A DNA stretch of 6,581 nucleotides from Chloroflexota bacterium. GTDB lineage: Bacteria > Chloroflexota > Anaerolineae > CG2-30-64-16. The notes under the pieces were generated by a model that was not told where the DNA came from, made no database searches, and saw nothing but the letters and a program-made list of their open reading frames with translations. A program made the position numbers and the translations under genes. The stretch is taken from the NCBI GenBank assembly GCA_029555885.1, contig JAKPQT010000143.1:1-6581 (forward strand). Direction: 5' to 3'. How positions within the stretch are numbered: the stretch's first letter is position 1; every line of letters begins with the position of its first letter. Shown here piece after piece: positions 64 through 6,581 of the stretch.

Positions 64-888
64 TCACTCGCCCGAGTGGTCGTCCTGGACCGACGTGTTG
101 TCGGTGGCCTCGGCGCTCTTCGGGATGATGCAGACGCGGCGGAAGACGCCCTCGCCCTCGGAGCGGGTCACGACGCCGGCGTACTCGCGCAGCGTGAGCG
201 CGGCCGCCTGCGCGTGTTCGACCAGGAAGCCCAGCATCCCCAGCAGCAGTTGACGGAGCAGGCTCTTCTCCACCGGCAGCCGGGCCAGCGGCGGCGGGAC
301 GTCGATGGACAGCGTCAACGCGCGCTGGCGCAACCGGTCTTCCAGCAGCGAATGGATGCCGTCCAGCAGCTCGCCCAGGCTGACGTGCCGCCCGGCCTGC
401 GCGAGCCGCGCGGCCTCCAGGCGCAGCAGGGCCAGGTCCGGCGCATCCCCGCGGGAATAATGGTCATCGGCGGGCGGCACAGCCGCCGTATCGCCCGCGT
501 CCGCGGCGGCCTGGTAGTGCTCCCACAGGATGTCGGCCAGGGCCGCGAGCGCGGCCTCGTGCTCCCGGTAGAACTGGCGTCGGCTGATGCCGATCTCGTG
601 CGCGATGGCGCCGGCCTCCAGCCCGTCCACGTACCGCCGCACGACCAGCCGGTGCCGCCGCCACTCACGGGAGAAGGGCGGGGCCAGCGGGCCGGGGTCC
701 AGTTCGTCGATCGCCCTGAGCAGCAGGTCATAGAGCTGCCACGCCCGCTCCTTCCGGCCCGCGTCGCGGCCCGCGGCTGCGCCTGGCGCCAGCGCCGCGG
801 CGAGCGGGTGCGTGCGCAGGTACACCTGGTCGTAGAGATGCTGGTATAGGTCCGCCACCTGGCGGTTGAAAGCTTCGCGGGTAAGCAT
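64..888 (-). CDS. HTH protein with degenerate histidine-kinase-like C-terminal region (putative regulator)
   Basis: This is a 274-residue cytoplasmic protein with no signal peptide or membrane segment; I do not recognise a named family with certainty. Residues 1-65 are helical. Residues about 88-112 look like a helix-turn-helix (GAIAHEIG, then ISRRQFYREH as recognition helix), followed by a helix ending LWEHY. An acidic linker (about 128-150) leads to a helical stretch (about 150-190) resembling the dimerisation region of sensor kinases. Residues about 203-233 (LPVEKSLLRQLLLGMLGF onward) resemble the segment around the N-box of a HATPase domain, but the conserved Asn is absent and no DxGxG-type box follows before the stop, so ATP binding is unlikely. 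Third codon positions stay G/C to the stop, so the C-terminus looks natural, not frameshifted. I chose the ATG at 888: the 14 extra codons back to 930 have poor codon bias and overlap the operator-like repeats. Neither start has a strong ribosome site. It is divergent to the sugar operon, which suggests, without proof, that it controls it. Confidence 0.72.
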   Translation of the reverse strand: MLTREAFNRQVADLYQHLYDQVYLRTHPLAAALAPGAAAGRDAGRKERAWQLYDLLLRAIDELDPGPLAPPFSREWRRHRLVVRRYVDGLEAGAIAHEIGISRRQFYREHEAALAALADILWEHYQAAADAGDTAAVPPADDHYSRGDAPDLALLRLEAARLAQAGRHVSLGELLDGIHSLLEDRLRQRALTLSIDVPPPLARLPVEKSLLRQLLLGMLGFLVEHAQAAALTLREYAGVVTRSEGEGVFRRVCIIPKSAEATDNTSVQDDHSGE

Positions 889-912
889 GGCACTCTGCAC
901 GATGACCAAATA

Positions 913-947
913 TGGCACAGCCTGGCACATGGCGTCTGGATTGTGCC
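913..947. promoter_or_regulatory. Operator-like repeats (TGGCACA x2 plus inverted TGTGCC)
   Basis: TGGCACA occurs at 913-919 and again at 923-929, exactly 10 bp apart (about one helical turn), and the inverted half-site TGTGCC lies at 942-947. The group sits between the divergent start codons and overlaps or abuts the proposed -35 box of the sugar operon. This arrangement would suit a dimeric or tandem-bound regulator. The binding protein is unknown; the divergent HTH gene at 64-888 is an obvious but unproven candidate. Confidence 0.4.
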
Positions 948-1038: not shown

Positions 1039-2442
1039 ATGTCAGTCAACGATTCCAAGAAGCTGAGCCGCCGCAAGTTCCTCAACGGTGCGCTCTTAGC
1101 TGGGGCAGGCGCCAGTGCGAGCTTCGCACTCGGCGCGTGCGCACCCACTACCGCACCGGCTCAGGCTCCCGCCGGCCAGCAGCCGGCCGCCGAAGCCACC
1201 GCTGCACCGGCCGCGGCCGGCAAGGTCAACCTGCGCTTCATCACCAACCACGGCGCAGCGGACGAGCCGCTGTTCGTCAAGGTCGTCGAAAACTTCATGG
1301 CCGCCAACCCCGACATCACCATCGAGCGCCTCGACATCGCGGGCGAGGAGTTCTACAACTCCATCAACACGCAGGGCGCGGGCGGCCAACTGCCGGATGT
1401 GTGGTACACCCGCACGTTCGATGTACCCGTCTATGCCAGCAAAGGCTGGACCGTGAGCCTGCAGCCGCTTGCCGAGCGCGATGCGGCCGAGGTCAACGTG
1501 GATGACTTCTGGCCCGCCGAGCTGGCGCAGATGCAGTGGAAGGGCGAGCTGTTCGCCCTGCCCTACGATTTCTCCAACATCGGCATCTACTACAACAAGG
1601 ACTGGTTCGATCAGGCAGGCGTTGCCTATCCCGCGAACGACGAGTGGAAGTGGGACGACCTGCTGCAGACCGGCCTGAATTTCGTTCAGAAGGAAGGCAA
1701 CGAGTTCAAGACCTGGGCGCTGGATATGTACCTGTGGGACTGGGTGTTCATGGGCCTCCTGTACGGCTGGGGCGGCAAAGTCTTCAGCGATGATTTCAAG
1801 GAAGTCCTGATCGATAGCCCCGAAAACTTGGCAGCGATGCAGTGGTTCGTGTCAGCCCGCGAGCAGGGCCTCTACCCCGAGGCCGGCGCCGCGCCGCAGG
1901 GCGTCGATCCATTCTCGGGCGCGGTGGTGCCGATGGCCTTCCAGGGCTCCTGGGCCACGGTCCAGCTTCGCGCCAACATCGCGGACAAGTTCGACTTCGA
2001 CTGCCTGGCGATGCCGAAGTCCCCGTCCGGTGCGCCCTGCATCAACGCGGCAGGCGGCGCGTGGGGCATCGCGAAGAACACGAAGGACCTCGAAGCGTCC
2101 TGGAAGTTCAACAAGTATCTGACCAGCACGGAAGGCACCAACATCCTGATCTCCGAGCCGCTGCGCAGCATCCCGGGCCGCAAATCCTCCGTGCCGAAGT
2201 GGAATGAGACCGCCGCGCAGGGTGGCCTGCCGCCGGAGAATGTGGAAGTCTTCGCCAGGCAGATGGAAGGTGCGCATGCTGCGCCCTACCCGCCGTACTG
2301 GCGCGACTATGCCAACGCGTGGACCAACATCATCGTCCCAACCCTCAACGGCACCGTGGACGAGGACCCAGCGGAGACCCTGAAGGCGTTCAGCGAAGAA
2401 GTGACCCGCATCATCGACCAGAACCAGGCCAGCCTGGGCTGA
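1039..2442 (+). CDS. ABC transporter sugar-binding lipoprotein (extracellular solute-binding protein family 1)
   Basis: This 467-residue protein should capture a sugar or sugar derivative outside the membrane and deliver it to the two permeases encoded downstream. The N-terminus carries a twin-arginine-like motif (SRRKFL, residues 10-15), a hydrophobic segment (about 16-30) and a lipobox (LGAC, 31-34), so Cys34 should be lipidated after Tat-type export. Residues about 35-62 form a low-complexity Ala/Pro/Gln/Thr linker. The mature domain follows with features of MalE/UgpB-like binding proteins: an early FITNHGAADEPLFVKVVENF segment, LPDVWYT, LFALPYDFSNIGIYYNKDWF (ligand-cleft region), FQGSW and AAGGAWGIAKNTK. 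The length is normal for the family. It is the first gene of the operon and has the clearest promoter and ribosome site. The ligand cannot be deduced; glycerol-3-phosphate, oligosaccharides and monosaccharides are all handled by this family. Confidence 0.93.
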   Translation: MSVNDSKKLSRRKFLNGALLAGAGASASFALGACAPTTAPAQAPAGQQPAAEATAAPAAAGKVNLRFITNHGAADEPLFVKVVENFMAANPDITIERLDIAGEEFYNSINTQGAGGQLPDVWYTRTFDVPVYASKGWTVSLQPLAERDAAEVNVDDFWPAELAQMQWKGELFALPYDFSNIGIYYNKDWFDQAGVAYPANDEWKWDDLLQTGLNFVQKEGNEFKTWALDMYLWDWVFMGLLYGWGGKVFSDDFKEVLIDSPENLAAMQWFVSAREQGLYPEAGAAPQGVDPFSGAVVPMAFQGSWATVQLRANIADKFDFDCLAMPKSPSGAPCINAAGGAWGIAKNTKDLEASWKFNKYLTSTEGTNILISEPLRSIPGRKSSVPKWNETAAQGGLPPENVEVFARQMEGAHAAPYPPYWRDYANAWTNIIVPTLNGTVDEDPAETLKAFSEEVTRIIDQNQASLG

Positions 2443-2445
2443 TAC

Positions 2446-2509
2446 GTGAACAGGTGAACGGGTGAAGAGGTGACAAGGTGACTGGGTGACAAGGTGAAGA
2501 GGTGAACAG
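2446..2509 (+). repeat. Left tandem array, eight GTGA-type 8-bp units
   Basis: The units in order are GTGAACAG, GTGAACGG, GTGAAGAG, GTGACAAG, GTGACTGG, GTGACAAG, GTGAAGAG, GTGAACAG. The first four bases are invariant and the variants are arranged almost symmetrically around the fifth unit. The array begins 3 bp after the binding-protein stop codon. Confidence 0.93.
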
Positions 2510-2551
2510 GCGCCAGAGTGAGAAAGCGCCGGGATGAAAAGGCTAATGGAT

Positions 2552-2613
2552 TCGAGGCTTTAGCCGGTTTGGCAGTGAACCAGCGTTCACTATGTTACCG
2601 GCTAACGCCTCGA
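2552..2613. repeat. Central 62-bp near-palindrome of element 1
   Basis: TCGAGGCTTTAGCCGGT (2552-2568) pairs with ACCGGCTAACGCCTCGA (2597-2613) at 16 of 17 positions. Inside it, AGTGAAC (2574-2580) and GTTCACT (2585-2591) form a second perfect 7-bp stem with loop CAGC. The two stems are separated by unpaired TTGGC and ATGTT. A promoter-like pair (TTGGCA at 2569-2574 and TATGTT at 2591-2596, 16-bp spacer) falls exactly in this unpaired part; it may be chance. Confidence 0.9.
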
Positions 2614-2624
2614 CTCCAGCGGCG

Positions 2625-2724
2625 CACCTCTTCACCCAGTCACCTTGTCACCCTGTCACCTTGTCACCCTGTCACCTTGTCACCCTGTCACCTTGTCACC
2701 CTGTCACCTTGTCACCTCTTCACC
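2625..2724 (-). repeat. Right tandem array, twelve CACC-type 8-bp units
   Basis: The units are CACCTCTT, CACCCAGT, then CACCTTGT and CACCCTGT alternating from 2641 to 2712 (a perfect 16-bp period, 4.5 copies), then CACCTCTT and a partial CACC. Every unit reads as a left-arm type on the other strand. The array ends 13 bp before the start codon of the first permease, so it could hinder or pace translation initiation there. Confidence 0.95.
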
Positions 2725-2737
2725 GCCGGGGGTGCTT

Positions 2738-3667
2738 ATGCTCCGATTACCCAAATTCTACATGCCCAAGTCGCGCCTCGCACGGCTGGAAGCCCGTGAC
2801 GGCTTCCTGTTTATCCTGCCGTGGGCCATCGGCTACCTGCTGTTCCGTCTGGGTCCCCTGCTTTACTCTCTTTACCTCAGCTTCACGGATTTCTCGGGCT
2901 CGGGCGCGCCGAAATTCATCGGCTTAGAGAATTACATCTATATGTTCACCCGGGATCCGCGTTTCATGGATTCGGTGCGCTCCACGCTGGCATTTGTCGT
3001 GGGCTTTCTGCCGCTCAACCTGATCGTGGGCCTGGCGATTGCGCTGCTCATGAACCAGCGCGTGCGGGGGATTCTGACCTTCCGCGCGATCTACTACCTG
3101 CCCTCCGTCACTTCGGGCGTGGGCGTTGCGCTGCTGTGGCAGTTTGTCTTTCACAAACAGTGGGGCATCCTCAACGCGATCCTGTCGTTCTTCGGCATCC
3201 AGAACATCGGCTGGTTGGTTGACCCGGACTGGGTCATGGTCGCATTCGTCATCATGTCCCTGTGGGGCGTCGGCGGCAGCATGATCATCTACCTGTCCGG
3301 CCTCCAATCCATACCTACCGAATTGTACGAATCTGCGTCCATCGACGGCGCCGGCCGGACGCGGCAGTTCTGGCACATCACCCTGCCCATGCTCAGCCCG
3401 ACCATCTTCTTCAACCTCGTCACGGGCCTGATCGGAGCGTTCCAGATCTTCGAGAGCGCGTACGTGATGACCGGCGGCGGCCCGCGCTACGCCACGTATT
3501 TCTTCGGACTGAACATCTACTTCACGGCGTTCCGGTCGCTGCGCTTCGGCTATGCGTCCACACTCGCCTGGATGTTGTTCGCCATCATCGTCGCGCTGAC
3601 GATCTTCGTGTTCAGCACGTCGCGGCGCTGGGTCTTCTACGCGGGTGCGCGGGACGAAGAGGCATAA
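2738..3667 (+). CDS. ABC sugar transporter permease, MalF/UgpA type
   Basis: This 309-residue inner-membrane protein is one half of the transport channel, partnering the MalG-type permease that follows. About six hydrophobic segments can be seen, near residues 22-48, 84-106, 115-138, 165-188, 221-242 and 275-296. The cytoplasmic EAA loop that docks the ATPase is at about 197-221: YESASIDGAG, then FWHITLPMLSP, including the diagnostic DGA...F...LP pattern. The MTGGGP motif (244-249) and the short charged tail are typical of the family. I chose the ATG at 2738, which has a G-rich ribosome site (GGGGGTG) just upstream. The frame stays open upstream to 2645, but that stretch is only the tandem repeat and would add a repetitive HLVTLSPC leader with no family counterpart. 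The in-frame ATG at 2762 has no ribosome site. No ATPase gene lies nearby, so a shared ATPase is inferred. Confidence 0.94.
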   Translation: MLRLPKFYMPKSRLARLEARDGFLFILPWAIGYLLFRLGPLLYSLYLSFTDFSGSGAPKFIGLENYIYMFTRDPRFMDSVRSTLAFVVGFLPLNLIVGLAIALLMNQRVRGILTFRAIYYLPSVTSGVGVALLWQFVFHKQWGILNAILSFFGIQNIGWLVDPDWVMVAFVIMSLWGVGGSMIIYLSGLQSIPTELYESASIDGAGRTRQFWHITLPMLSPTIFFNLVTGLIGAFQIFESAYVMTGGGPRYATYFFGLNIYFTAFRSLRFGYASTLAWMLFAIIVALTIFVFSTSRRWVFYAGARDEEA

Positions 3668-3677: not shown

Positions 3678-4577
3678 ATGGCTATCGGACAACAATACCT
3701 CAGCGGCGCCTCAGGCGGGATCGACTACCACGGACTGGGTACTCGGCGCATGCGGCGCATCGAAAAATTCCTGGTCTATCTCGTTCTCTTCATGGGCGCC
3801 ACGCTGCTCATGGTTCCGTTCTTCTGGATGGCCTCGACCAGCCTGAAGAGTCTGGCTGAGGTGCAGACATGGCCGATTGTCTGGATTCCGAGCCAGTTCC
3901 TGTGGTCCAACTACCCAACTGTCTTTGAGCGCACACCCTTCGCCCGCTACCTGCTGAACAGCCTGATTATCTCCGGCGGAGGCATCATCGGCACCCTGGT
4001 CGGCAGCTCGCTTGCGGGGTTCGGCTTCGCCCGGCTGCGCTTCCCCGGCCGCGACCTGCTCTTCTTCATCAACCTGACCACCCTGATGCTGCCCGCCTGG
4101 GTCGTCATCGTGCCCCACTTCATGATGTTCAGCTACGTCGGCTGGCTCGACTCGTACAAGCCGATCATCGTGCCCGCGTTCTTCGGCAACGCGTTCCACA
4201 TCTTCCTGTTCCGCCAGGCGTTCCTGGGCATCCCGCGCGAGCTGGAAGACGCCGCGCGCATCGATGGCGCCTCGAACCTGCGCATCTTCGCGCAGCTCTT
4301 CCTGCCGCTGTCCAAGCCGGTCATCGCGACGGTCGCCATCTTTGCCTTCTATTACTATTGGAATGACCTGGTCTACCCGCTGGTCTACCTTCAGTCGCAG
4401 CTCAAGTTCCCGGTCAGCCTCGGCCTGCGCATGTTCCAGACCGCCAACATGGGTGTGGTTGAGATGCCCCTGCTGATGGCCGCCTCGGTCATGGCCCTGC
4501 TGCCGTGCGTGCTGCTCTTCCTCTTCGCGCAGCAACTGTTCATCCAGGGCGTCGTCGTCACGGGGGTCGAGAAGTAA
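3678..4577 (+). CDS. ABC sugar transporter permease, MalG/UgpE type
   Basis: This 299-residue inner-membrane protein is the second half of the channel. Residues 1-28 are a polar cytoplasmic N-terminus. Hydrophobic segments follow near 31-53, 91-118, 127-150, 160-178, 215-240 and 262-288. The EAA loop (about 188-214) reads ELEDAARIDGASNLRIFAQL followed by FLPLSKP, a very good match to the consensus with DGA and LP in place. The C-terminus QQLFIQGVVVTGVEK is the usual MalG-type ending, and the length is normal. The start at 3678 is fixed by AAGGAGA. It follows the first permease by only 10 bp, the tightest junction in the operon and the only one without a repeat element, which fits a need for equal amounts of the two subunits. 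Confidence 0.95.
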   Translation: MAIGQQYLSGASGGIDYHGLGTRRMRRIEKFLVYLVLFMGATLLMVPFFWMASTSLKSLAEVQTWPIVWIPSQFLWSNYPTVFERTPFARYLLNSLIISGGGIIGTLVGSSLAGFGFARLRFPGRDLLFFINLTTLMLPAWVVIVPHFMMFSYVGWLDSYKPIIVPAFFGNAFHIFLFRQAFLGIPRELEDAARIDGASNLRIFAQLFLPLSKPVIATVAIFAFYYYWNDLVYPLVYLQSQLKFPVSLGLRMFQTANMGVVEMPLLMAASVMALLPCVLLFLFAQQLFIQGVVVTGVEK

Positions 4578-4591
4578 GTTACAAGTTGGAA

Positions 4592-4688
4592 GGTTCAGGT
4601 TGAAGGTTACGGGATTCAGTGAAATGATTGCGGCAGCAACCTGTAACCTGGGCGGAGCAAAGCTCCGCACAACCTTCAACCTGGAACC
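4592..4688. repeat. Mirror-image intergenic element 2: AGGTT-type repeats with interrupted inverted arm
   Basis: This fills the gap between the second permease and the MocA gene. GGTTCAGGTTGAAGGTT (4592-4608) faces AACCTTCAACCTGGAACC (4671-4688), complementary apart from one extra base. GGTTAC (4605-4610) also faces GTAACC (4643-4648), so the right arm looks like a copy of the left arm split by about 22 bases. The left side is built of roughly 7-bp AGGTT-containing words (from about 4582). The style parallels elements 1 and 3, though the words are unrelated. Confidence 0.88.
4652..4668. repeat. Perfect mini-hairpin inside element 2
   Basis: GCGGAGC-AAA-GCTCCGC is a perfect 7-bp GC-rich stem with a 3-nt loop, located where the right arm of element 2 is interrupted. 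No T-run follows, so it is not a classical intrinsic terminator. It would be a very stable RNA hairpin about 40 nt before the MocA start codon. Confidence 0.85.
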
Positions 4689-4705
4689 AGAAAGGGTCAC
4701 ATCGC

Positions 4706-5764
4706 ATGACAATCAACATCGGTATCCTCGGCCTGGCGCACGGCCATGTCAACTCGTACCTGGCCCAGTGGCAGCAGAACGCCGGCCATGACATCGCCGC
4801 GGTCGCGGCTTGGGACCACAACGCGACACGGCTGGCGAAGGGCGTCGAGCAGTTCGGCTTCGACGGCTGTGCCAGCGTTGCGGAGCTCCTGGCCCGCCCG
4901 GACATCCAGGGCGTGGTAGTTGCCGCGGAAACCTCGCTGCACGCCGACCTGGTCGTGCAGGCGGCTGAGGCAGGCAAGATGATTGCCCTGCAGAAGCCCA
5001 TGGCACTCACGCTGCCGGAGGCCGACCGCATGGTTGCCGCGGTCGAGCGGGCGGGCGTGCCCTTCACCCTCGCCTGGCAGATGCGCGTCGACCCGCAGAA
5101 CATCGCCATGAAGGAGATGGTGCAGCAGGAGACGCTCGGCAAGGTCTACATGGTGCGCCGACGCCACGGCCTGCCCTCGCAGCTCTGGGACATCGCGACC
5201 ATGTGGCACTTCGACCCCGCGCTCAACCGCGACATCTGGGCCGACGACTCCGCGCACCCGATCGACTTCATCCACTGGCTGCTCGGCGTGCCTGAATCTG
5301 TCACCGCCGAGGTGATGAGCCTGCGTGACCCGCGCGCACCGATGGACAACGGCGTCGCGCTGTTCCGCTATGCAGGCGGCCCGCTGGTGCAGGTCGACTG
5401 CTCGTTCACCTGCGTGGCCGCGGAGAACACCACCGAAATCTACTGCGAGCGGGGCAGCATTATCCAGAGCTTCGGGGATGTGCCAGGCTGCGCTGCACCG
5501 CGGCCCGCCGGCGACCTGGGGCTGAAGTGGTACAGCCAGGACACCAAGAGCTGGACCTACAGCGACATCCCCAGCCCGGCCCAGCACGGCGCGCGCATCG
5601 CGGGGCTGTCCGGCCCGCTGGCCGAGTTCTTCCACGGCCGGCGCGCGCCGCTCGCCACCGCAGAAGAGGGGCGCACCTCGCTGCGCATGGTGCTCGCGAC
5701 CTACGTCTCCACGCGCGAGGGCTGCCGCGTGACGCTGGACGACCCGCGCATCGCCGCGGTGTAA
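4706..5764 (+). CDS. Gfo/Idh/MocA family NAD(P)-dependent oxidoreductase
   Basis: This 352-residue soluble enzyme probably oxidises or reduces a hydroxyl/keto group on a sugar, inositol or related polyol. The N-terminal Rossmann domain (1-120) starts INIGILGLAHGHV, a relaxed dinucleotide-binding glycine motif. Residues 95-98 are LQKP, the position of the family's EKP motif: the Lys (K97) is kept but Glu is replaced by Gln. The C-terminal domain carries WADDSAHPIDFIHWLLG (178-194), with H184 and D187 in the place of the family's catalytic-site His and Asp. The length is normal. I chose the ATG at 4706, with AAAGGG at 4691-4696 and the family-like MTINIGILG start. The frame is open back to 4628, but those 26 codons run through element 2 and resemble no Rossmann N-terminus. 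Its place after the permeases suggests it acts on the imported compound. The exact reaction is not predictable. Confidence 0.92.
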   Translation: MTINIGILGLAHGHVNSYLAQWQQNAGHDIAAVAAWDHNATRLAKGVEQFGFDGCASVAELLARPDIQGVVVAAETSLHADLVVQAAEAGKMIALQKPMALTLPEADRMVAAVERAGVPFTLAWQMRVDPQNIAMKEMVQQETLGKVYMVRRRHGLPSQLWDIATMWHFDPALNRDIWADDSAHPIDFIHWLLGVPESVTAEVMSLRDPRAPMDNGVALFRYAGGPLVQVDCSFTCVAAENTTEIYCERGSIIQSFGDVPGCAAPRPAGDLGLKWYSQDTKSWTYSDIPSPAQHGARIAGLSGPLAEFFHGRRAPLATAEEGRTSLRMVLATYVSTREGCRVTLDDPRIAAV

Positions 5765-5769
5765 GGGAG

Positions 5770-5880
5770 AATAGAACGCTGATGACGTTGATGCGACTGA
5801 TTGACGCTGATTTTTTCCATTATATAGATCACAACGGGATCAGCGTGAATCTGTCCAATCTGCGTCATCAGCGTTCTATT
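5770..5880. repeat. Mirror-image intergenic element 3: 42-bp inverted arms of TGAT/GCTGAT words
   Basis: AATAGAACGCTGATGACG (5770-5787) is perfectly complementary to CGTCATCAGCGTTCTATT (5863-5880). The pairing continues inward, 5788-5811 against 5839-5862, at 18 of 24 positions, so each arm is about 42 bp. The arms are built of loosely repeated CTGAT/TTGAT words. The 27-bp loop (5812-5838) is AT-rich. The element starts 5 bp after the MocA stop codon and ends 17 bp before the next ATG. It has the same architecture as elements 1 and 2 but different words. Confidence 0.93.
5801..5828 (+). promoter_or_regulatory. Possible internal promoter inside element 3
   Basis: TTGACG (5801-5806) matches the -35 consensus at 5 of 6 positions, and TATAGA (5823-5828) matches the -10 at 4 of 6 with a 16-bp spacer. 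It would place a start point in the loop or right arm of element 3 and drive the aldo/keto reductase gene. The AT-rich loop makes a chance match fairly likely. Confidence 0.28.
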
Positions 5881-5897
5881 TTAGCGTTGAGGTAAAC

Positions 5898-6581
5898 ATG
5901 CAGTACCGTCCCTTCCCCGGCCTGCCCCTGGCCCCCTCCGTCATCTGCCTCGGCACTGGCGGCTACGGCACGAACATCCCGACTGAGCAGGCCTTCGCGC
6001 TGCTGGACGCGTACGCCGAGCAGGGCGGCAACTTCCTCGACACCGCACGCATCTACGGCGCGTGGGCGCCCGGCGGCGACGGCGCCAGCGAGAAGACCCT
6101 CGGCGCCTGGCTCAAGCGCACGGGGGCGCGCCACCGGTTCGTCATCTCCACCAAGGGCGCACACCCTGACCTGTCCACCATGCACATCAGCCGCATCGGG
6201 CCGGCGGACCTCGCGGCGGACATCCGGGCCAGCCTCGATGCGCTCCAGACGGATGTCATCGACGTCTACTGGCTGCACCGCGATGACCCGGCCGTGCCGG
6301 TCGGTGAGATCCTGGCCGCGCTCAACGAGCACCTGGCCGCGGGCCGCGTGCGCGCCATCGGCGCGTCCAACTGGTCGCTCGCCCGCCTGGTCGAGGCGAA
6401 CGAGTATGCGCGCGAGCACGGTCTGACCGGCTTCCAGGCCAACCAGATCGGCTGGAGCCTGGCCGCCGCGAACACCGGCACGGCGCCGGTCGCGGGGATG
6501 CTCTACATGGACGCGCCGACCTATGCGTATCATCAGCAGACGGGCCTGCCCGTGCTGGCCTACTCGTCGCAGGCGACGGGC
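5898..6581 (+). CDS. Aldo/keto reductase, partial (3' end beyond window)
   Basis: The first 228 residues of an NAD(P)H-dependent aldo/keto reductase are visible. The family is usually about 300-340 residues, so roughly a quarter to a third is missing at the window end. The catalytic tetrad is present: Asp48 and Tyr53 (NFLDTARIYG), Lys86 (FVISTKGAHP) and His127 (VYWLHRDDP). LGTGGYG (18-24) starts the barrel, and GRVRAIGASNWS (149-160) and FQANQIGWS (179-187) are standard family segments. The ATG at 5898 is preceded by GAGGT (5889-5893). It most likely reduces or oxidises a carbonyl or hydroxyl group in the same sugar pathway as the upstream MocA enzyme. A pair of this kind often lies together in carbohydrate clusters. 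Codon usage and GC-rich third positions match the rest of the operon. Confidence 0.92.
   Translation, partial: MQYRPFPGLPLAPSVICLGTGGYGTNIPTEQAFALLDAYAEQGGNFLDTARIYGAWAPGGDGASEKTLGAWLKRTGARHRFVISTKGAHPDLSTMHISRIGPADLAADIRASLDALQTDVIDVYWLHRDDPAVPVGEILAALNEHLAAGRVRAIGASNWSLARLVEANEYAREHGLTGFQANQIGWSLAAANTGTAPVAGMLYMDAPTYAYHQQTGLPVLAYSSQATG

Follow-up and report, generated by a model that had tools for sequence, protein, structure and literature searches.

The window analyzed here, i.e., the whole stretch of 6,581 nucleotides of Chloroflexota DNA, contained the genes of a transport operon and several repeat elements (Table 1). A divergent gene upstream of the operon (positions 64-930, minus strand) had a weak HTH_7 match below the cut-off and might regulate the operon. 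By direct reading, a repeat array of 279 nt (2446-2724) filled nearly the whole gap between the binding-protein and first permease genes, starting 3 nt past the TGA of the former and ending 13 nt short of the ATG of the latter (2738).

Table 1. Genes and repeat features of the window, with positions counted from its first nucleotide.
Feature	Position	Strand	Basis
Extracellular solute-binding protein gene (stop TGA at 2440-2442)	1039-2442	+	SBP_bac_1, PF01547, E 6.5e-26
Leading arm of the array: eight G-rich octamers, GTGANNNG	2446-2509	+	Direct reading, repeat search
Leading arm, degenerate inner part	2510-2546	+	Mostly paired in RNA fold; within inverted-repeat arm
Core palindrome	2547-2618		Inverted-repeat search
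Trailing arm of the array: twelve C-rich octamers and CACC	2625-2724	+	Direct reading, repeat search
ABC permease gene 1	2738-3667	+	BPD_transp_1, PF00528, E 1.6e-12
ABC permease gene 2	3678-4577	+	PF00528, E 2.9e-17
Second gap element: leading arm AAGGTTGA-type, trailing arm AACCTTCAACCT	4578-4690	+	Fold, skew
GFO/IDH/MocA oxidoreductase gene	4706-5764	+	PF01408, E 1.6e-18
Third gap element: GACGCTGAT-type inverted repeat	5765-5882	+	Fold, skew
Aldo/keto reductase gene, truncated by the window end	5898-6581	+	PF00248, E 2.9e-41

Direct-repeat families within the array had a spacing of exactly 8 nt. The leading-arm units start at 2446, 2454 and so on to 2502, and their variable part reads, in order, ACAG, ACGG, AGAG, CAAG, CTGG, CAAG, AGAG and ACAG. 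The octamers of the trailing arm start at 2625 through 2713, followed by the final CACC that ends at 2724; CACCTTGT and CACCCTGT alternate, with CACCTCTT at each end and CACCCAGT in second place. Read as reverse complements from the outside inwards, they give AGAG, CAAG, four rounds of CAGG and CAAG, CTGG and AGAG. Both arms contain AGAG and CTGG, which are rare units, in the same order (AGAG-CTGG-AGAG), and the extra length of the right arm consists of copies of a 16-bp double unit, which is a sign of slippage. The preliminary description had counted eight units on the left and twelve on the right, which is correct. The mirror-image layout that it proposed holds in that the arms are reverse-complementary around a core palindrome, although this is an inverted repeat and strictly no mirror repeat. 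The inverted-repeat arms (2446-2542 and 2627-2723) are 97 nt long and 76% complementary, and the halves of the core palindrome (2547-2580 and 2585-2618) show 79% complementarity. The proposed long and stable RNA hairpin was also predicted: positions 2440-2736 folded into a long rod of -165.5 kcal/mol, compared to a mean of -102.1 (sd 4.9) for shuffled sequences (z -12.9; 0 of 200 shuffles equal or better). No U run, a feature of intrinsic terminators, followed the hairpin; the sequence after the trailing arm is GCCGGGGGTGCTT. A search of the whole window against Rfam at the gathering score gave no matches. The G/C skew, (G-C)/(G+C), was +0.45 in the first half of the gap and -0.51 in the second.

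One half of the core palindrome, CGAGGCTTTAGCCGG, is part of another dispersed family of palindromes, which was present in G002, G069, G183 and G135 but not in G101 among five genomes surveyed, so that the window element is nested. Copies of the core palindrome, CGAGGCTTYAGCCGG...CCGGCTRAAGCCTCG, occurred at window positions 2547-2618, L184:19143, L207:11339, L214:9341 and L270:4067, embedded in octamer arms in the window and in GATTGCG heptamer arms at L184. Another, near-identical palindrome (GCTGTGGCCGGTCTCCTGACCGAGCCA / TGGCTCGGTCAGGAGACCGGCCACAGC) was seen in several gaps of G069 (L183, L184, L194 and L195) and in some cases adjoined GTATCTTCTCAAT ends.

All three long gaps of the window carry inverted repeats, each with different units, and the two permease genes are separated by 10 nt without any element. 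Both the gap at 4578-4705 (AAGGTTGA-type units, z -3.2) and the gap at 5765-5897 (GACGCTGAT-type units, z -8.2) fold well. Skew changed from +0.60 to -0.21 across the second element and from +0.28 to -0.08 across the third, and each of the six elements found in the window and its nearest relative, L001, had a positive and then a negative skew. The five nearest loci were L001, whose permease is 92% identical, and then L002-L005. The binding-protein gene of the window also has near-identical counterparts on further contigs, namely P0001 (99% identity) and P0002 (95%). A hairpin was present in the binding-protein/permease gap of the window and of all five loci, with the shuffle test applied to the window gap only. 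The hairpin sequences of L002-L005 are unrelated to that of the window, L001 retains degenerate GTGA octamers, and in the other two gaps the repeat family differs between the window and L001. In a wider set, 69 loci with the permease gene called yielded 56 upstream and 55 downstream gaps that could be scored, the upstream gene being presumed to encode the binding protein. Stem scores of at least 12 were found in 27 of the 56 upstream gaps and scores of at least 18 in only 4, two of which were L001 and L003; the window array is thus larger than is typical for this gap, as had been suggested. Downstream gaps, with a far smaller median length (9 vs 110 nt), gave 4 of 55 and 0 of 55, respectively. 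Palindromes of CGTGCCAGGCACTTCCGAAGTGCCTGGCACG type recurred in L002 (5892-6003), L004 (5872-6003), L112, L116 and L213, and fill the binding-protein/permease gap in two relatives.

Of 298 genomes in the class to which G002 belongs, 55 contained a pattern of four octamer units, with a maximum of 484 matches per genome, which agrees with the earlier proposal of a dispersed repeat family; the reversed-letter control matched in 13 of the same 298 genomes (hand count of the table). Matches elsewhere were at or near the control level, so that the octamer family belongs mainly to this class: 7 of 246 genomes in the phylum of a locus labelled Thermoguttaceae contained the pattern (8 for the reversed-letter control, hand count), as did 1 of 199 in the phylum of a Paenibacillus locus (0 for the control) and none of 7 assorted other genomes. 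The preliminary description also mentioned, tentatively, similar octamer arrays translated as HLVTLSPC in misannotated proteins from several phyla. The translation is correct and comes from an open frame (2645-3667) that runs through the trailing arm, but support for a spread over several phyla is weak, consisting of the 7 and 1 genomes above. This frame is an example of an annotation risk, in that tandem arrays can be misread as protein. In G527, from the Thermoguttaceae-labelled phylum, there were 14 matches to nearly one octamer string, GTGATTTGGTGAAGTGGTGATTTGGTGA, some of them as opposite-strand pairs, and these repeats are perhaps a true mobile family.

The placement of arrays was surveyed in approximately 1.52 Mb from five class members (G002, G069, G183, G135 and G101), which are fragmentary MAGs selected as array-rich. 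Many of the stretches were picked for octamer arrays, and one subset was picked independently of arrays. Genes were called with a simple custom codon-usage caller, which recovered the expected genes on the window, and arrays were found with Tandem Repeats Finder (periods 6-10 and multiples). Gaps above 600 nt were dropped (557 of 585 kept); the hairpin survey covered gaps of 30-600 nt, and those with masked N runs were dropped (767 of 781 kept). Among 743 merged arrays, 308 within coding sequence (86% of bases) and 44 at edges stayed outside the strand counts except in a coding control, and the codirectional total was 312 or 336 according to how overlapping arrays were merged.

Tandem arrays of 7-10 nt units, belonging to many families, were located at gene ends, often across the stop codon. 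Hairpins with tandem-unit arms were present in 61 of 584 gaps between codirectional genes, in 8 of 87 between convergent genes and in 1 of 96 between divergent genes (Fisher p 0.001 for divergent gaps). In codirectional gaps, their 5' arm began a median of 2 nt from the stop and their 3' arm stopped a median of 25 nt ahead of the next start. Arrays as a whole were depleted in divergent gaps (39 of 391 vs 21.7% expected from gap length, p 1e-9). Octamer clusters in codirectional gaps were sense-oriented only in 42 cases, antisense only in 15 and both in 5; 11 others lay in convergent gaps, 2 in divergent gaps, 9 at contig or stretch edges and 13 in called ORFs. Since like elements are found at the ends of many unrelated genes, they are not specific to binding-protein/permease stoichiometry, the role first proposed for the array.

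These arrays followed a strand rule. An array was considered to be at the stop if no more than 12 nt separated it from the upstream stop codon, a limit that we chose. In codirectional gaps of the five genomes, where arrays within one genome are partly non-independent, arrays at the stop were G-rich on the sense strand in 116 cases, C-rich in 11 and tied in 2, whereas those away from the stop were C-rich in 151, G-rich in 53 and tied in 3. In convergent gaps, reading the plus strand, left stops had 13 G-rich, 1 C-rich and 2 tied arrays and right stops 16 C-rich and no G-rich arrays; i.e., 29 of 30 signed stop-touching arrays were G-rich on the sense strand of the gene that they touched. For 128 pairs of consecutive arrays, the order on the sense strand was G-then-C in 96, C-then-G in 8, two C-rich arrays in 13, two G-rich arrays in 8 and other in 3. 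G-then-C prevailed over C-then-G in pairs with no complementarity (43 vs 1), with weak complementarity (6 vs 0) and in complementary pairs (47 vs 7). Arrays lacking both G3 and G2 quadruplex potential behaved likewise (51 G-rich vs 7 C-rich at stops; 70 C-rich and 32 G-rich elsewhere). Stretches picked independently of arrays gave 30 G-rich, 5 C-rich and 1 tied at the stop, and 40 C-rich, 10 G-rich and 1 tied away from it. As a control, arrays wholly within coding sequence showed no G excess (193 C-rich, 142 G-rich and 10 tied, unmerged), and array-free gaps had an almost flat skew. The A/T sign tracked the rule less clearly (73 A-rich and 51 T-rich at stops). Heptamer arrays at stops were G-rich in 57 cases and C-rich or tied in 12; these units contain no stop codons, and the supply of stop codons as the sole cause of orientation was rejected because they obey the rule too. 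The strand rule is independent of unit, pairing and quadruplex potential, and we did not find such a generalised rule in print in searches of open-licence PMC text.

The closest known repeats are the GGGNATC and GGGGA(C/T)T heptamers of Xanthomonas and Nostoc, which were described as quadruplex-forming and for which, in the accessible text, the authors did not identify a role in gene regulation (Rehm 2015, PMC4692102). They resemble the arrays of our survey in their short tandem units, position, strand rule and inverted pairs. According to the same text, the majority of downstream repeats are found no more than 50 bp from the stop, overlap with it included, and their G-rich strand is the coding strand; repeats upstream of ORFs are G-rich on the non-coding strand, and few occur in divergent gaps (PMC4692102). 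Both the G-rich sense strand near stops, as in the window, and rarity between divergent genes were observed in our arrays. The excerpts available also report 70 and 75 inverted heptamer pairs in two Xanthomonas genomes and few in Nostoc, and heptamers that vary in length and sequence between relatives (PMC4692102). The heptamer unit and the quadruplex potential were not shared: the window has GTGANNNG octamers, and G3 quadruplex potential was absent in 298 of 336 arrays. As far as that text goes, Xanthomonas and Nostoc have one heptamer type per lineage, whereas here there are many 7-10 nt families per genome (PMC4692102). Unlike in the Xanthomonas/Nostoc reading, the rule here also holds without pairing, and whole families are swapped at orthologous gaps. 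What is new relative to PMC4692102 is that the rule is independent of unit, pairing or quadruplex.

A plausible, if not quite probable, interpretation is that the window array is one of a gene-border class, in which a G-rich array at or over the upstream stop and a C-rich array before the next gene punctuate transcription. Its computational basis is the placement, the strand rule, the exchangeable unit families and the independence from pairing and quadruplex potential; we take strand composition, rather than a hairpin, to be the property common to the class. Arrays may expand and contract by slippage, and their arms may at times be copied from one another by template switching, which would explain why some elements have inverted-repeat arms and others arms of unrelated words. 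The G-rich-then-C-rich composition would be kept because it punctuates transcription at gene ends, which is the least certain step. RNA leaving the gene would be G-rich, forming a stable RNA-DNA hybrid and inducing pausing; RNA ahead of the next gene, being C-rich and G-poor, could load Rho, and the switch from G to C would lower read-through without a U-tract terminator. In the window, the arms would also pair, placing a 279-nt rod in the message between binding protein and permease that should favor the former over the latter.

Rho is a possible candidate reader of strand composition. YC dinucleotides are a known Rho contact, but across 162 C-rich arrays they were no more frequent than base composition predicts (1919 seen vs 1950 expected), and 13 units were without YC. 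The Rho RNA-binding domain was present in 39 of 40 genomes, array-rich or otherwise, and the sole exception, G243, carries octamer arrays; this near-universal occurrence irrespective of arrays also counts against punctuation. The strongest finding against a role directed by the genes alone came from 25 array-bearing divergent gaps, in which those with at least two arrays were GC in 5 cases, GCC in 3, CG in 2 and CC in 1, a lean toward G-then-C suggesting that polarity may be the element's own rather than that of the gene end. In addition, non-complementary G-then-C pairs may be nested inverted repeats, each minus one arm, the avoidance of promoters could be mere tolerance, and many orthologous gaps were without any array. 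In the Xanthomonas excerpt, transcripts in one transcriptome start and stop more at quadruplex-capable repeats than at other repeats, which points to a quadruplex effect there (PMC4692102). Why short-unit arrays occupy bacterial gene ends is now a testable question. We consider it possible, though rather less credible than punctuation as formulated above, that punctuation is sequence-agnostic: strand composition alone would mark gene ends, with words and pairing exchangeable, and a conserved skew switch would be read by the transcription machinery through RNA-DNA hybrid stability and/or Rho, hairpins and quadruplexes being by-products.

Alternatively, the rod may be an intercistronic stabiliser or attenuator whose base pairing in the sense mRNA is under selection, which would explain the strong fold of the window (z -12.9), the hairpins of differing sequence in 6 of 6 orthologous binding-protein/permease gaps and the stems in 27 of 56 upstream vs 4 of 55 downstream gaps, given the shorter median of the latter (9 vs 110 nt). 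This was weighed in a partner test on 47 sense-oriented octamer arrays, 42 of which left a gap of at least 20 nt. At a cut set by the 99% shuffle line, a complementary partner was found for 16 of the 42 arrays, and 26 had none. G.U pairs did not clearly exceed A.C mismatches in codirectional stems (173 vs 190), tandem arms (90 vs 110) or plain stems (242 vs 218), and the positive controls were too small (3 usable tRNAs with 0 G.U and 2 A.C; 36 terminator-like hairpins with 8 G.U and 7 A.C). The partnerless arrays, together with the G-then-C order of the 43 non-complementary pairs, indicate that a hairpin is not a general conserved property of the class; pairing is common yet dispensable. Selection on the hairpin is accordingly a minority reading, and we prefer punctuation by composition.

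Of comparable, limited probability is neutral self-extension, in which arrays grow by slippage and microhomology-mediated template switching and survive where they are harmless, just past stops. It is a close rival because it explains array-supplied stop codons well. The stop codon was overlapped by 27 of the 42 sense-only octamer arrays at offsets of exactly -4, -12 or -20, so that TGA is supplied by the array unit, and four more arrays lay in phase at +4 (stop in octamer phase in 31 of 42). The last 8 coding nucleotides matched the array at 4.07 of 8 positions vs a background of 2.65 (n=43). The probability that two units are identical was also higher within an array (0.34) than within a genome (0.19) or between genomes (0.14), and, according to the part of a published study available, template switching is able to create and maintain hairpins (PMC8794818). 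Neutral growth does not by itself yield the G/C strand rule, above all for units without stop codons (7-mers, 57 vs 12).

Turnover of units was evident at orthologous gaps. In the gap between DAHP synthase and prephenate dehydrogenase (downstream gene PF02153 in G002; 30 matched loci examined, by eye and with stem scores), relatives carried unrelated units: octamers in G002, octamers and then TACCAATC in G135, AAGGTTC heptamers in G116, GGGTATT heptamers in G069, a GACGCAGAT-type pair in G196 and GGTAGACAAG in the more distant G209 (66% identity). Nothing comparable was seen at this gap in G050, G153 and G001, and G183 and G036 gave an ambiguous picture. A search for the PEBP-family gene gave a match in 94 of 296 genomes; 30 loci were examined, and octamer arrays were present at the 3 closest, one of the other 27 being too short to judge.

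Two further explanations appear very improbable. Mobilisation in trans by a transposase, as for REP/RAYT or MITE-type elements, would fit a dispersed, intergenic and patchy distribution, but the listed elements, whose unit number and order vary, showed neither constant ends nor a full-length consensus, and the Y1 transposase family, found in 205 of 296 genomes including G002, G101, G183 and G135, was not found in array-rich G069, whose assembly is possibly incomplete and which, as far as it shows, does not need such mobilisation. A G-quadruplex, as put forward for the Xanthomonas and Nostoc heptamers, has in its favor the equal placement rule and the more frequent transcript starts and stops described in the accessible text of PMC4692102, and G3-capable arrays obey the rule (14 vs 1 at stops), but it was rejected as a general cause on the 51 vs 7 arrays without potential, and the leading arm of the window has two GGG runs and otherwise GG. 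As the rule holds without quadruplex potential and without complementarity, neither quadruplexes nor pairing can be the general explanation.

Other known systems share some of these features. The STRR heptamers of cyanobacteria are tandem 7-nt units, like the arrays described here. In the excerpts available, DNA uptake sequences are likewise short dispersed words with dialects that form intergenic inverted pairs (at terminators), but they are single words that are common inside genes too, whereas here there are tandem arrays of several families (PMC3630211, PMC1590033). REP/BIME elements with RAYT are also intergenic palindromic repeats in the available text, but, unlike them, our elements have no conserved tagged palindrome or fixed element, and Y1 transposase was not found in G069 (PMC3733652). 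Hairpin clusters that act as terminators are likewise located past stop codons and do not need a U-tract, but in the text available they are short contiguous hairpins and not repeat arrays (PMC8355165). The concentration of intergenic stem-loops at gene 3' ends is already recorded in the accessible part of an earlier survey (PMC1590033), and that part of our findings is therefore not new. Literature searches with the octamer and HLVTLSPC strings gave matches only in three papers with titles on stem cells, a lncRNA and exosomes, and six other unit strings gave no match.

The arrays also affect the proteins that they border, as they can provide the stop codon and lengthen the C-terminus. PEBP-family proteins (PF01161, three genomes) and DAHP synthase (PF00793, two) end at the same point as several array-free relatives, and the array therefore starts at the native stop there. 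Array-encoded C-terminal tails such as VTR, VTG and DKVTR were seen on many different proteins (e.g., in L260, L276, L256 and L253), and homology searches could take them for conserved motifs.
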